Assembly: GCA_018662405.1 (NCBI GenBank)
Contig: JABJGE010000068.1
Coordinates: forward strand, 1 to 58,520
Length of the DNA: 58,520 bases
Reading direction: 5' to 3'
DNA from: Campylobacteraceae bacterium
GTDB taxonomy: Bacteria; Campylobacterota; Campylobacteria; Campylobacterales; Arcobacteraceae
In this document: positions 24,076-30,232 of the stretch, one piece after another
Numbering within the stretch: the stretch's first letter is position 1
How the letters are laid out: every line of letters begins with the position of its first letter
The notes under the pieces: model-generated
Database searches by the model: none
What the model was told of the DNA's origin: nothing
Seen by the model: only the letters and a program-made list of their open reading frames with translations
Translations under genes and position numbers: made by a program

Positions 24076-25170
24076 GTGAAGTACTTACATGATTTAAAAC
24101 AAATTATTGAAATCAACTCTTATACTCAAAATAAAGATGGAGTTGATAAGGTTGGTCTTCAAATGCAAAAGTGGTTAGAAGATATTGGATTTGAAACAAA
24201 AAGATATCAAAGAGACTTAATTGGTGATCATCTATTATTTACTACCCCAAAAACTAATGGTCCAAAAATATTACTTTTAGGACATAATGATACAGTATTC
24301 CCATTTGGTACATTTGAAGGTTTTAGAGAAGATGAAAATTGGATCTATGGACCTGGTGTATGTGATATGAAAGGTGGAAATATAGTTGCCCTTGAATCAT
24401 TAAGAAATTTACATAAAACAAATAAGCAAATAACTAATATAGATTTCCTTTTAGTTTCAGATGAAGAAACTGGAAGTGATGATAGTAAATTTGTTACATT
24501 AGAACTTGCAAAAAACTATGACTATTGTTTTGTATTTGAAGCAGCTGGAGAGAATCTTGAAGTTGTAACAAGTAGAAAGGGTGTAGGAACATATACCATA
24601 TCAATTCAAGGCGTTGCAGCACATGCAGGTACTAGCTATTTAAAAGGTACTAATGCTAATCTTGAAGCAGCTTATAAACTTCAAGAACTTACAAAATTAA
24701 CTAACCTAGATATTGGAACTACTGTTAATGTTGGACAAATAACAGGTGGAATTGGAGCAAATACAATATCTCCTAAATGTGAACTTCTTCTTGAAATTAG
24801 ATACACTAAAAATAGTGAAAGAGATAGACTATTAAAAGCACTAGATACTATTACAAATACTTCATATGTAGATGGTACAAAATCAACTTTAAGTGGATTA
24901 ATTCAAAGAGATGTAATGGAAGAGAATCATACTCAATTAGAATTTGTAAAACAACTTGAAGAGATTACTAATACAACAATACCTCGTGAGCAAAGAGGTG
25001 GTGTTAGTGATGCAAATCATGTTGCATCATGTGGAGTTATCACACTAGATGGCTTTGGTCCTTTTGGAGATGGAGATCATACAATTAATGAAAGAGCATT
25101 AAAAAGTAGTTTTACTCAAAGAATATCTATGATGAGTAAAATATTAAATTCAATTAAAGGGGAGAATTAA
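24076..25170 (+). CDS. M20-family carboxypeptidase, glutamate carboxypeptidase (CPG2)-like
   Basis: 364 residues, no signal peptide. Di-zinc ligands of the M20 family are all visible: His70 and Asp72 (LLGHNDTVFP), Asp97 (CDMKGG, the bridging Asp), Glu130/Glu131 (SDEETGS, general base and ligand), Glu155 (FVFEAAGE) and His335 (GDGDHT). The lid or dimerisation domain contains GVAAHAGTSY. CPG2-like enzymes remove a C-terminal Glu or similar residue. The GTG start follows AAAGGAAA by seven bases. Its stop overlaps the ATG of the ATP-grasp ligase by one base, so the two are coupled, which suggests it trims a product or precursor of that ligase. Confidence 0.85.
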   Translation: MKYLHDLKQIIEINSYTQNKDGVDKVGLQMQKWLEDIGFETKRYQRDLIGDHLLFTTPKTNGPKILLLGHNDTVFPFGTFEGFREDENWIYGPGVCDMKGGNIVALESLRNLHKTNKQITNIDFLLVSDEETGSDDSKFVTLELAKNYDYCFVFEAAGENLEVVTSRKGVGTYTISIQGVAAHAGTSYLKGTNANLEAAYKLQELTKLTNLDIGTTVNVGQITGGIGANTISPKCELLLEIRYTKNSERDRLLKALDTITNTSYVDGTKSTLSGLIQRDVMEENHTQLEFVKQLEEITNTTIPREQRGGVSDANHVASCGVITLDGFGPFGDGDHTINERALKSSFTQRISMMSKILNSIKGEN

Positions 25171-26087
25171 TGGCTAAAAATAGAACAATAGGGATTTGGA
25201 TGTATCAAAACGGTGGTGGAGATATCATCGAACAAAAAATGGTACAAAAATTAAAAGAACGAGGAATAGATTGTATTACAGGACTTAATTTAAGAAATGC
25301 AATATCAAAGAATGGTTCTATAATTTGTCAAGATGTTAATGGTAAAGATATAAAAATGGAAACTTTAGATTTAATGTTTTCATATAATGCAGGTGAACAA
25401 ACACAGTATCAAACATATTTATACCAAGCATTAAATAGAATTGTACCTATGATTAATTCATATGAGTCTTTTGCACTTACTGAAGATAAATTTCATACAT
25501 CATTTGTACTAAGAAATGCAGGTATTGCAACTGCTGATTATAAACTATGTCATAGAGATGATGCACATCAGCTTAAAAAGATTATCACGAAATGGGATAA
25601 AATGGTATATAAACCAACTGATGGTTGGGGTGGTATGGGTCTTACAAAGATAGAAAATGAAGACACTCTTGATATGCTTATGCCATTTTTAAATCAAATG
25701 GATTTAAGATATTTCTATGTGGAAAAATTCATTACGTATGATAATAGTGACTTTAGAGTTGATATTGTTGATGGTGAATTTGTAAGCTGTTACGGTAGAA
25801 AAGCTAGTGGTAATGATTGGCGTACAAATATTACAGCAGGTGGATCTGTATTTATGAGAGATGCAAGCGAAGAAATTATTGATGTAGCAAAACGAGCATG
25901 TGAAGCTTGTGGTGTTGATATTGGTGGTGTTGATATTATTTATGATGAAGAAAAAGAAGAGTATGTAGTATTAGAAGTAAATGGAATACCTGCTTTTGCT
26001 ACACCTGAACAAGAAGGAATGGGACTTAAATTTAACGATAGAAAAATTGATTTAATTGTTGATTTAATAGACAGAAAAACTAAGTAA
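25170..26087 (+). CDS. RimK/LysX-like ATP-grasp ligase
   Basis: 305 residues. The ATP-grasp fold is seen from the P-loop-like lysine segment VYKPTDGWGGMG (Lys148), the acidic hinge YVEKFI, the substrate Arg-containing strand SDFRVDIVDGEF, RTNITAGG (Arg218, Asn220) and the metal site GGVDII (Asp255) with LEVNGIPAF (Glu269, Asn271). All catalytic positions are present. RimK-type enzymes join an amino acid to a carboxylate via an acyl phosphate. The substrate is unknown. The N-terminal pre-ATP-grasp domain is distinct from RimK. It is coupled to the M20 peptidase by a one-base overlap, with GGGGAG as ribosome binding site. Confidence 0.85.
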   Translation: MAKNRTIGIWMYQNGGGDIIEQKMVQKLKERGIDCITGLNLRNAISKNGSIICQDVNGKDIKMETLDLMFSYNAGEQTQYQTYLYQALNRIVPMINSYESFALTEDKFHTSFVLRNAGIATADYKLCHRDDAHQLKKIITKWDKMVYKPTDGWGGMGLTKIENEDTLDMLMPFLNQMDLRYFYVEKFITYDNSDFRVDIVDGEFVSCYGRKASGNDWRTNITAGGSVFMRDASEEIIDVAKRACEACGVDIGGVDIIYDEEKEEYVVLEVNGIPAFATPEQEGMGLKFNDRKIDLIVDLIDRKTK

Positions 26088-26188
26088 ACGTGTAGATTCG
26101 TAACATTAGATTATTTTATACTATTACTTTAATAATATATTAATTATTTTTTAGATAGAATCCGAAAATTATGAAAAAGGGAAATAAT

Positions 26189-27610
26189 ATGGCACTAAAA
26201 AACAAAGACTTACCAACACTTGGATTTTTATACATGGATTATGTATTAAGATTTTTTGATCACTCAAACTTCAAAGGTTGGCCAAATAAAATAGAAACAG
26301 CAACTTACCACTGGGGTAATGATAAAGATAGATTTATCAAAGAAGTAAAAAGAAAAAAAATTGATATTTTAATTGGTAATGTACCTGCAACTGCATATGA
26401 AACTTTTAGAGAAATTGCAAGAGAATTACCTCATGTACAATTTATCCCTTCTTTAGATACTCAATTTTCTAATAAATCAAAAGAAAATGTTACTAGATTT
26501 GCTTGGAAGTATGACTTACCAATCCCTAAGACTTATATATACTATAATAGACCAAATGCCTATAAATTCCTTAAAAAATGTGAATATCCAAAGATTATAA
26601 AAAAATCATATGGACCATCAAACTACGGTGGATACTTTGTACATAAAGTAGACGATGAGAAAGAAGCAGCCAAACTATTCAATGAAAAGAAATATCATCC
26701 AATGTATATGCAAGATTTTGTACCTATGGAAGCAGATATTAGAGTTATGCTTATTGGTCATAAACCTGTATGTGCATTCTGGAGAAGAGCCCCTGAAGGT
26801 GAGTGGTTAACAAATACTAGTCAAGGTGGATCTATGGACTACATGGATGTTCCTAAAAATGTTTTAGATTTAGCTGTTCAAGTATCTAAAGATGCAAAAG
26901 CTGAATATTGGGCATGTGATGTTGCATATGGACTAGATGGTGTTCCACGAATTTTAGAGTGTGCTACGGCATTTGCAGCATTCCCATATATTAGAGACTG
27001 GATTGGTCAATATATTATGTGGAATTTAAGCGAAGGTAGATTTAGAAAACCTCATATGCCAATGTTTAACTGGGAAGAATTAGGTAAAGTTTCTCCAGAT
27101 TTACTAAGAACTATGAGACATATTACATTTGGTAAATATGATTCTTCATATGATGGTGAATACTTTGGAAATAAAAAGAAAATGTATGGTGAAGGTGAAA
27201 GATACTTACATGAACTTGATGATGAATATAAGGTTTATAAAGTAAAAAGAAGATGGACAGAAGAATGGCCAAGTGAAAAATGGAACTATCAAGATAATCT
27301 TTCTTTAGAAAATTTAAAATCAATGAAAGTACCAAACCTTACAGATAAAAATACACCAAATCCAGATAAAAATGAAGATGAAGAATCTGTTCAAACTAAA
27401 GATGTTTCAAAAGAAGAATTAAAAGAAGTTTTAACTTCAATTGATGGTATTGGTAATAAAAAATTTGATAAAATAATTGAAGAAGTTGGATCAACACAAG
27501 ATGTAGTTGGAGTACTTGATCAATCTCCTGCAATCCTTATAAATATTAAAGGTATCACAAAGAAGCTTATAGATAAAATCACAGATTCTTGGGAAAATTT
27601 CAGAAAATAA
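26189..27610 (+). CDS. ATP-grasp protein with C-terminal helix-hairpin-helix domain
   Basis: 473 residues from the ATG at 26189, chosen because AAAAAGGGAAA lies just before it; an ATG at 26171 would read through that site. The middle resembles the RimK-type ATP-grasp (IIKKSYGPSNYGG around residues 136-148, ADIRVMLIGHKPVCAFWRR near 182-200, NTSQGG, ACDVAYG with Asp244). The usual Glu-x-Asn metal pair reads Glu257-Cys-Ala, so the Asn is missing. An acidic linker leads to two helix-hairpin-helix repeats at the C-terminus (about 405-473: SIDGIGNKKFDKIIEEVG, then NIKGITKKLIDKI), a fold that usually contacts nucleic acid. Function unknown; a 101-base gap separates it from the first ligase. Confidence 0.75.
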   Translation: MALKNKDLPTLGFLYMDYVLRFFDHSNFKGWPNKIETATYHWGNDKDRFIKEVKRKKIDILIGNVPATAYETFREIARELPHVQFIPSLDTQFSNKSKENVTRFAWKYDLPIPKTYIYYNRPNAYKFLKKCEYPKIIKKSYGPSNYGGYFVHKVDDEKEAAKLFNEKKYHPMYMQDFVPMEADIRVMLIGHKPVCAFWRRAPEGEWLTNTSQGGSMDYMDVPKNVLDLAVQVSKDAKAEYWACDVAYGLDGVPRILECATAFAAFPYIRDWIGQYIMWNLSEGRFRKPHMPMFNWEELGKVSPDLLRTMRHITFGKYDSSYDGEYFGNKKKMYGEGERYLHELDDEYKVYKVKRRWTEEWPSEKWNYQDNLSLENLKSMKVPNLTDKNTPNPDKNEDEESVQTKDVSKEELKEVLTSIDGIGNKKFDKIIEEVGSTQDVVGVLDQSPAILINIKGITKKLIDKITDSWENFRK

Positions 27611-27622
27611 GGGTCAATTAAT

Positions 27623-30232
27623 TTGAAACAACAATATAAATCTTATCAACAAACTTGTGATTTTTTAGAAGATTGTGTAAGAAAATATCCAGATTTAATT
27701 AAAATTAAATCAATAGGAAAAACATGGGAAAATAGAGATATTATGCTTGCAACAATATCTCTAAATGTTGAACAATCTCATTTAAAACCAGCTATGCTTT
27801 ATACAGGGTCTATCCATGCTAGAGAATGGATAGGTAATGAGTTAGGTGTGGCTTTCATAGAATATTTATTAGAAAATCATTCATCAAATCCTAGTGTATT
27901 AAAAACACTTACTAAAAATACACTCTATATTGTACCTTGTCTAAATCCAGATGGATTTGAGTATAGCCGTTCTCATTTTTCTTTTTGGAGAAAAAATAGA
28001 CGAGATAATGGAGATGGTACATTTGGTGTAGATTTAAATAGAAACTTCTCTATTGGTTATCAAAAATCTAATAATACATCATCAAATGTGCATAGTGGTC
28101 CTCACCCTTTTAGTGAACCAGAAACACTTGCTATGAAAAAATTTGTAGATGCACATGAAAATATAACTATTGCTTTAGATTATCATTCGCAAGGAAATGT
28201 TTTCTTTCCTGCACATAAATTCAAACATGAATCAGAAATTGAAGGTACTGACCTTAATACATTATGTGCAAATATGAATTATGAAATTCAAAAAGTAACT
28301 GGTAGAAAATACGGAATCCATAGAGGTAAGCCACCTACAAAATTAATCTCTGGTAGTGGTAGAGAGTATTATTATAGTCGTGGTATTATTTCTGTAGTTG
28401 TAGAAGTAGGAACAAGAAATATTCCTGACTTTATGCAAAATATGCAAGAATCAATTGATGAAAATATTCCTGCACTACTTAGATCACTTAGAGAAGCTAA
28501 AAATTATTCAAAAAATGCTCCAAAAAGAGTAAATAATTTCAGTACATCTAATGTTTCAAAAAATGAAGTTACATTAACTTGGGATTATCCAGAAAATAAA
28601 GATATTTACTTTCAAGTTTTTAGAAATACTGAAAATAAAGAGTCTTGTACTAAAAACAATATGGTATGTGAAACTTACAATAGAACATTTACAGATATTC
28701 AACTTAAAAGTTCTACATCATATTATTATTATATTAGAGCCGTTAATAACCTAACTGATGTTAAATCACCTTATGCTCCAAAAGCTAAGGTAAGAACACT
28801 TCTTGATGATGACGAATTTGCAAAAACTATTTTTCCAAATCCTAAATCAGTAGGTTATGTTGCACAAAAATCTATTGAAACTAATTTAAAACATTTTGGA
28901 ATCAATTCTCTTTTTATAGGTGTTAATGAAACTAAAGGTAAAAGTTTTGGAGTAATGGAATTTGATTTAAGTTCAATACCAAAAAATGCAATTATTAAAG
29001 ATGTTCAAATATCTTTATACCCTTTAAACAGAGTGAATGCAAAAATTGAAAAATTTGGTGAATGGAAAGTATCATTTATAGATCAAGAGACAGTATCACA
29101 AATTAGTGATTATGATCAAATTAATAACGCAACAATTATTGAAACATTAGGTGATTCAATACCATCTGAAAAATTAACTCAAGGTATTTGGAGTCATTGG
29201 AATTTTACTGGATCAGAAAAAAGTATTTTAGAAACACAATTACAAAACAATAGTAAAGTCCTATTTAAAATACATGGACCAGAAGTACTTCCTGACGGTA
29301 GAGATTCTCAAATGATGATGTTTGATCTAGGATACGGTAAATTTGGTGGTGGTTTACACTACAGACCAAATATAGACATTACATATACTATTCCTAGTAC
29401 AAAAGTTGAGATTAAAGCATCTACAATATCATCAATTTATGAAGATAATATTAATACTAATGAACTTATTTGTGGATTTGATAAAAATAACAATAAAATA
29501 TACGGTCTTATGGAATTTAATTTAGATTGTTTACCAGATGCAAATAAAACTGTAATTACAAATAGCTACATACAAATAAAAAATAAAAGTGCTTCAAAAA
29601 CAAAAGAAGATATTAGATATAACGTAGAGTTTGTAGAACTTAATGGCTCATCTTATGAATCAATGCAAAATAGAGAAAGAATTGAATTTATAGGATATGA
29701 AGTATCTCGTTCAGATATTCAAAAGAAAAAAACTCATAAATTCATTTTTGATAAATATTCTACAATGGCTCTAGAGGATATCCATAATTCAAAAAAAGAT
29801 GCAAAATTTATAATAAAACCTACTTCATCTGATATTAAAAACCATATAGTATCTTGGCATACAACAGGTAATCAAAGTCAAGTTAAACTTGTAGTGGAAT
29901 ATATAAATAAAAGAAATGAGTCTGTTAATACTATTGAAAATTTAAAATGTACTGTTAAAAGAGGTAAAATAAATCTTACATGGGATAGTCCAAGTGATGA
30001 AGATTTTAGTGGTGCATATGTAGTAAGAAATAGATTTAGAATACCAAAATCTCCACTTGATGGAGATAAAATATATGCAGGAAAAGACAACTATACAATA
30101 GATGATTTTGGAAGTATAGATATCTGTAAATATTATTCAGTATTTTCATATGACGATGTTCCAAATTATTCTCAAGCAGTATCTATTAAATATGATAGTA
30201 ATGGATCAGTAGCTTGTTTAGAAGTATGCTAA
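27623..30232 (+). CDS. M14 zinc carboxypeptidase with FnIII- and DNRLRE-like domains
   Basis: 869 residues. The M14 domain (about 1-295) has zinc ligands His65 and Glu68 (GSIHAREWIG) and His188 (LDYHSQG), substrate residues Asn139-Arg140 (VDLNRNF) and catalytic Glu261 (VVVEVGT). A fibronectin-III-like domain (about 300-392, ending YYIRAVN), two DNRLRE-like beta domains (about 400-590 with GVMEFDLSSIPKNAII, and 594-770 with GLMEFNLDCLP) and a second FnIII-like domain (about 775-869) follow. Such accessory domains are normally extracellular, yet no signal peptide exists. The TTG start cannot be moved upstream because the previous gene's TAA is in the same frame, only four codons away. Confidence 0.85.
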   Translation: MKQQYKSYQQTCDFLEDCVRKYPDLIKIKSIGKTWENRDIMLATISLNVEQSHLKPAMLYTGSIHAREWIGNELGVAFIEYLLENHSSNPSVLKTLTKNTLYIVPCLNPDGFEYSRSHFSFWRKNRRDNGDGTFGVDLNRNFSIGYQKSNNTSSNVHSGPHPFSEPETLAMKKFVDAHENITIALDYHSQGNVFFPAHKFKHESEIEGTDLNTLCANMNYEIQKVTGRKYGIHRGKPPTKLISGSGREYYYSRGIISVVVEVGTRNIPDFMQNMQESIDENIPALLRSLREAKNYSKNAPKRVNNFSTSNVSKNEVTLTWDYPENKDIYFQVFRNTENKESCTKNNMVCETYNRTFTDIQLKSSTSYYYYIRAVNNLTDVKSPYAPKAKVRTLLDDDEFAKTIFPNPKSVGYVAQKSIETNLKHFGINSLFIGVNETKGKSFGVMEFDLSSIPKNAIIKDVQISLYPLNRVNAKIEKFGEWKVSFIDQETVSQISDYDQINNATIIETLGDSIPSEKLTQGIWSHWNFTGSEKSILETQLQNNSKVLFKIHGPEVLPDGRDSQMMMFDLGYGKFGGGLHYRPNIDITYTIPSTKVEIKASTISSIYEDNINTNELICGFDKNNNKIYGLMEFNLDCLPDANKTVITNSYIQIKNKSASKTKEDIRYNVEFVELNGSSYESMQNRERIEFIGYEVSRSDIQKKKTHKFIFDKYSTMALEDIHNSKKDAKFIIKPTSSDIKNHIVSWHTTGNQSQVKLVVEYINKRNESVNTIENLKCTVKRGKINLTWDSPSDEDFSGAYVVRNRFRIPKSPLDGDKIYAGKDNYTIDDFGSIDICKYYSVFSYDDVPNYSQAVSIKYDSNGSVACLEVC

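Follow-up and report, generated by a model that had tools for sequence, protein, structure and literature searches.

A RimK/LysX-like ATP-grasp protein with a Glu-Cys-Ala metal motif and C-terminal helix-hairpin-helix repeats in a four-gene cassette of Campylobacterota

The Locus and the Core Fold of GRASP2

The window analysed here is a stretch of DNA of 58,520 nucleotides from a Campylobacteraceae bacterium (contig JABJGE010000068.1, positions 1 to 58,520). It contains two ATP-grasp proteins, GRASP1 and GRASP2, flanked by two metallopeptidases in the order M20 - GRASP1 - GRASP2 - M14. The carboxypeptidase genes around GRASP2 are a context that was missed in the original prediction for this DNA. 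The features are the following:

24076..25170, + strand: M20 metallopeptidase, nearest solved relative carboxypeptidase G2 (profile match, structure-relative search; catalytic residues conserved)
25170..26087, + strand: GRASP1, RimK/MptN-like ATP-grasp ligase with a full E-V-N motif (PF08443, 63 bits; MptN_Meth, 143 bits, below its cut-off; alignment)
26189..27610, + strand: GRASP2, RimK/LysX-like ATP-grasp protein with an E-C-A metal motif and a C-terminal (HhH)2 (Pfam RimK and HHH_5; fold match to ArgX, LysX and RimK; start placed by the ribosome-binding site)
26936..27001, + strand: invariant metal-site block of GRASP2, from about D244 to E257-C-A-T-A-F-A-A (D, E, C and A in 63/63 sequences)
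27410..27604, + strand: tandem helix-hairpin-helix of GRASP2, residues ~408-472 counted from ATG 26189 (PF14520, AlphaFold2 helices)
27623..30232, + strand: M14 zinc carboxypeptidase with fn3 and a weak DNRLRE-type C-terminal part, Arg247 at position 255 in CPA numbering (profile matches, alignment; 49/49 rows with residues)

The GRASP2 reading frame spans 26171-27610 (+) and encodes 479 aa. Translation probably begins at ATG 26189, with AAAAGGG as ribosome-binding site a few bases 5' of it, which confirms the coordinates and residue numbers originally given for this gene. Counted from this ATG, Asp250 and Glu263 of the 479-aa frame are D244 and E257.

Pfam RimK (PF08443) matches residues 113-251 of the 479-aa frame with 43.4 bits (cut-off 21), so that GRASP2 carries a RimK-like ATP-grasp domain. 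The core aligns with ArgX, LysX and RimK by sequence and by predicted fold, ArgX and LysX being the nearest solved structures on both counts. The AlphaFold2 model is of moderate quality, with a mean pLDDT of 66.7. At a finer level, GRASP2 remains below the curated cut-off of the RimK subfamily (TIGR00768, 77 bits vs. 143.4) and far below that of the RimK equivalog (PRK10446, 18 bits vs. 331); GRASP1 is also below the curated RimK subfamily cut-off. In the window's own genome, only GRASP1, GRASP2 and one PurT-like protein match PF08443, with no further RimK-like ligase there. A phage origin was rejected, as cyanophages gave only distant matches of the S6-ligase type.

Metal Site and Helix-Hairpin-Helix Domain of GRASP2

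At the metal site, GRASP1 reads E269-V-N271 vs. E257-C-A259 in GRASP2. That these residues lie opposite each other had been proposed from the letters of the two proteins, and the profile-profile alignment bears it out: both motifs fall together (LEC--ATAFAAF for GRASP2, LEVNGIPAFAT for GRASP1), a two-residue gap falls directly after the Glu-Cys of GRASP2, and either way, no Asn stands at Glu+2. In place of the Glu-x-Asn metal motif of RimK, Glu-Cys-Ala is found in 63/63 GRASP2 sequences. The substitution sits within the block ILECATAFAAFPYIRDW, unvaried across the family: E-C-A-T-A-F-A-A-F-P-Y is the same in all 63 Campylobacterota homologues, as are Asp250 and Glu263 (479-aa numbering), and the Photobacterium homologue, at 56% identity, has an identical E-C-A block. 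Little or no variation is seen in the Lys of the ATP site or in the Arg pair and TNTSQGG (the RR...TNT..GG acceptor motif), all of which align with LysX and RimK.

Not every ATP-grasp protein has an Asn at Glu+2: the corresponding place is occupied by E-V-S-P-R in the PurT-like protein of the same genome and by E-V-V in synapsin. Because the block is fixed family-wide, the other active-site residues are kept and PurT and synapsin do without the Asn, the E-C-A sequence is better read as a variant site under selection than as decay. An ATP-grasp protein without Glu-x-Asn can be strongly selected, and loss of the motif is by itself no sufficient sign of lost activity.

The original prediction had read the missing ligand as a possible mark of a non-catalytic partner. 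On this view, GRASP2 would assist or regulate GRASP1 and bind ATP and nucleic acid without catalysis of its own. Synapsin, an ATP-binding protein of the ATP-grasp fold, likewise lacks the Asn, and GRASP2 adjoins GRASP1 in most cassette loci. However, the conservation of the ATP-site Lys, Asp, Glu, Arg-Arg and TNT..GG and the E-V-S of PurT speak against such a role, as does the persistence of GRASP2 apart from GRASP1 in genome G051 and in Sulfurimonas. The non-catalytic partner is therefore not favoured, and we regard it as improbable.

The second half of that prediction, two helix-hairpin-helix (HhH) motifs at the C-terminus, fared better. HHH_5 (PF14520) matches residues 419-474 (479-aa frame) with 27.7 bits, just over the cut-off of 27, and AlphaFold2 places five helices at 408-472 (block pLDDT ~78-89) in a tandem (HhH)2 layout; in relatives, a ComEA-like HHH_3 is found. 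HhH domains occur across the GRASP2 family. Judged from the aligned sequences, the E-C-A and the HhH of GRASP2 are not chance features, since none of the 63 sequences departs from E-C-A or its partner Asp and the HhH is family-wide. Beyond the window, the HhH match in the same genome belongs to a RecD2-type helicase.

The kind of HhH varies within the family. The window clade carries HHH_5 (RecD2/UvrC-like), and a second, well-supported clade carries a tandem ComEA-like HHH_3 (94 bits). In one further locus (L010), HHH_3 is joined to a window-type GRASP2 body, the placement of this member being weakly supported. Two independent changes of the HhH are likely in the sequences compared. The domain is cleanly lost in L076, L013 ends after its first half, and the C-terminus of the Photobacterium protein aligns across the HhH part, yet reaches no Pfam HhH family. 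As one HhH family has been replaced by another, the swap suggests selection on a generic HhH property, most simply docking on nucleic acid; HhH domains can mediate protein-protein contacts too. It had also been suggested that GRASP2 may act on a nucleic-acid-associated protein. A ligase fold with an HhH, next to a second ligase, makes this part of the suggestion plausible, apart from the non-catalytic role that came with it.

In the linker before the HhH, many window-type members show a short acidic Asp-Glu-Ser/Ala motif near residue 399, counted from ATG 26189 (window ~27383). Glu399 is invariant in alignment A1, the linker being otherwise unconserved, and the motif is a possible interaction or modification site.

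The Cassette and Its Peptidases

The hosts of the cassette are marine sulfur-cycling bacteria. Often argG precedes the cassette and a gamma-carbonic-anhydrase-like gene stands behind it (both named from their reading frames, with no profile). The gammaproteobacterium Photobacterium sp. DA100 has all four genes on a 2.1-Mb replicon, with M20 inverted. Because these four are carried together there, the four-gene set is considered the unit.

Co-occurrence was examined in 60 genomes, those of the window's own organism and its relatives, some of them drafts. GRASP1 and M20 are found in an identical set of 28, GRASP2 in 27 and M14 in 30 of the 60 (pairwise Fisher p ~2e-12 or less, a statistic that ignores phylogeny and linkage). 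All four genes are retained in G046, spread over four contigs, and in G051, where a long distance separates GRASP2 from the rest. Incomplete sets also exist: G024 and G044 have GRASP1 and M20 without GRASP2 (G044 also without M14), G007 has only GRASP2 and M14, and G027 and G036 only M14. GRASP2 is not indispensable, since G024 and G044 do without it and the HhH is lost or halved in the two loci named above. Some genomes have an additional, more divergent copy of GRASP1 within or next to the cassette (L040:11702-12619 and L046:5173-6123). A defence system was rejected: PADLOC gave no match for the ligases or M20, and one weak match within M14.

The M14 protein resembles carboxypeptidase O at its active site. 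Its zinc ligands, Glu270, Asn144/Arg145 and a basic residue at 255 are all invariant (49/49 rows with residues, Photobacterium included). Position 255 (CPA numbering) is the S1' specificity position, and the phmmer alignment of SGSGRE in M14 with SGSSID in carboxypeptidase A4 places Arg247 there. In carboxypeptidase O, Arg255 gives the preference for C-terminal acidic residues (PMC9925722). Because it has the same Arg, the M14 of the cassette is predicted to be a C-terminal Glu/Asp-specific carboxypeptidase. It differs from carboxypeptidase O in being bacterial and in its long C-terminal extension with fn3. A short-fragment PDB search aimed at carboxypeptidase O returned unrelated matches only. 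Part of the extension (window 29597-29950, residues ~659-776) gives a weak match to a C5-cytosine methylase profile, below the curated cut-offs and probably due to chance.

The M20 protein, with its conserved catalytic residues, has as best solved relative carboxypeptidase G2, which is a glutamate carboxypeptidase. By eye, the frames of the window, M14 and M20 included, show no evident signal peptide, which sets both apart from carboxypeptidases O and G2; the process is hence assumed to be cytoplasmic.

Proposed Function and Candidate Targets

All four proteins point to the addition and removal of acidic residues, most likely glutamate: M14 by its Arg255, M20 by its likeness to carboxypeptidase G2, and both ligases by belonging to a superfamily in which most known members attach glutamate or aminoadipate. 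We tentatively propose that GRASP2 is an active ligase, that it is part of a set of four genes by which such residues are added and removed, and that its HhH docks on DNA or RNA. This reading is suggested by the alignment with ArgX, LysX and RimK, the fixed active-site block, the cassette and its co-occurrence even when unlinked, the Photobacterium copy, the two peptidase assignments and the use of two HhH families.

GRASP2 would be a carboxylate-amine ligase of the RimK/LysX type, with a variant metal site made up of Asp and Glu but no Asn, and would join an ATP-activated carboxylate to an amine on a target near DNA or RNA. As writers, GRASP1 and GRASP2 would add acidic residues, most likely glutamate, to the C-terminus or a side chain of a macromolecule. 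M14, acting on C-terminal Glu or Asp, and perhaps the carboxypeptidase-G2-like M20, would serve as erasers or recyclers, and the HhH would dock GRASP2 on DNA or RNA so that a substrate associated with the nucleic acid is reached. From sequence and predicted fold, we infer catalysis by GRASP2, glutamate as donor, reversibility and nucleic-acid docking.

Nearly as likely as the tailing of a macromolecule, and thus possible although doubtful, is a small-molecule pathway. The ligases would build a glutamyl peptide or a metabolite of the N-acyl-glutamate type (store, solute or cofactor tail), the peptidases would recycle it, and the HhH would serve dimerisation or as a scaffold. GRASP1 is indeed nearest to MptN, a cofactor glutamate ligase, M20 is nearest to a trimmer of small glutamyl compounds, and the cassette often lies behind argG. 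However, the adjacency to argG is not general, and such a pathway leaves unexplained why the HhH is retained and exchanged for another HhH family.

Under the tailing reading, the cassette can be compared with known systems. RimK glutamylates ribosomal protein S6, and the tail is trimmed by the protease RimB (RimABK). The ligase is an ATP-grasp of the same superfamily, and the logic of ligase and peptidase is similar. On the other hand, GRASP2 has an HhH and E-C-A, both ligases fall under the curated RimK cut-offs, the place of a retropepsin-like protease is taken by M14 and M20 metallopeptidases, and the S6 tails do not covary with the cassette. LysX and ArgX, the closest structures, differ from GRASP2 in the HhH. 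In tubulin polyglutamylation (TTLL/CCP), an ATP-grasp-like ligase works together with an M14 carboxypeptidase by which acidic residues are taken off; this parallel comes from general knowledge, and the cassette is bacterial, unrelated at the subfamily level and has an extra M20 and a second ligase. We propose by analogy that the cassette works like RimK/RimB or TTLL/CCP and is a member of neither.

Acidic tails that are added and removed again are well documented for tubulin; in bacteria, they are known mainly from ribosomal protein S6. A more specific version, and a rather unlikely one, is that of a horizontally mobile bacterial writer/eraser system, which would set reversible glutamate tails on a protein associated with DNA or RNA and whose writer would be held on the nucleic acid by an exchangeable HhH. 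If true, such a system would be the prokaryotic equivalent of TTLL/CCP polyglutamylation as far as its logic is concerned. With its pair of ATP-grasp ligases, its pair of glutamate-type carboxypeptidases and its nucleic-acid module, the cassette would represent a new system of regulation or metabolism in Campylobacterota, of which Photobacterium has a copy. In the literature covered, which mostly leaves aside subscription papers, nothing specific was found on the combination of ligase, HhH and carboxypeptidase. The cassette itself, a variant of known ligase/peptidase logic, is the more interesting object.

Among candidate targets, ribosomal protein S6 is not supported: its tails look alike in cassette-positive and cassette-negative genomes. 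Neither is a LysW carrier, as none was found over the cut-off in the 31 genomes searched, with the profile positive in the controls Thermus, Deinobacterium, Haloferax and Sulfolobus. Modification of elongation factor P (EF-P, gene efp) by GRASP2 or the cassette would be a further alternative. In Sulfurimonas-type loci where GRASP2 stands apart, efp lies upstream of it (immediately so in all but L074), and in L073, it lies upstream of the cassette. EF-P retains the modifiable Lys loop HVKPGKGAAF, and no EpmA was found over the cut-off in 60 Campylobacterota genomes. However, this adjacency may reflect one or two historical events, and efp is located elsewhere in the window's genome. Since the loop is identical with and without the cassette, EF-P is only a minor rival and a very unlikely one.

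The loci with efp on the same strand, upstream of GRASP2 (of the cassette in L073), are L054-L057, L059, L064, L065, L068, L074, L035 and L073. In several loci with efp and GRASP2, a DnaE-like gene, named by eye, stands behind.
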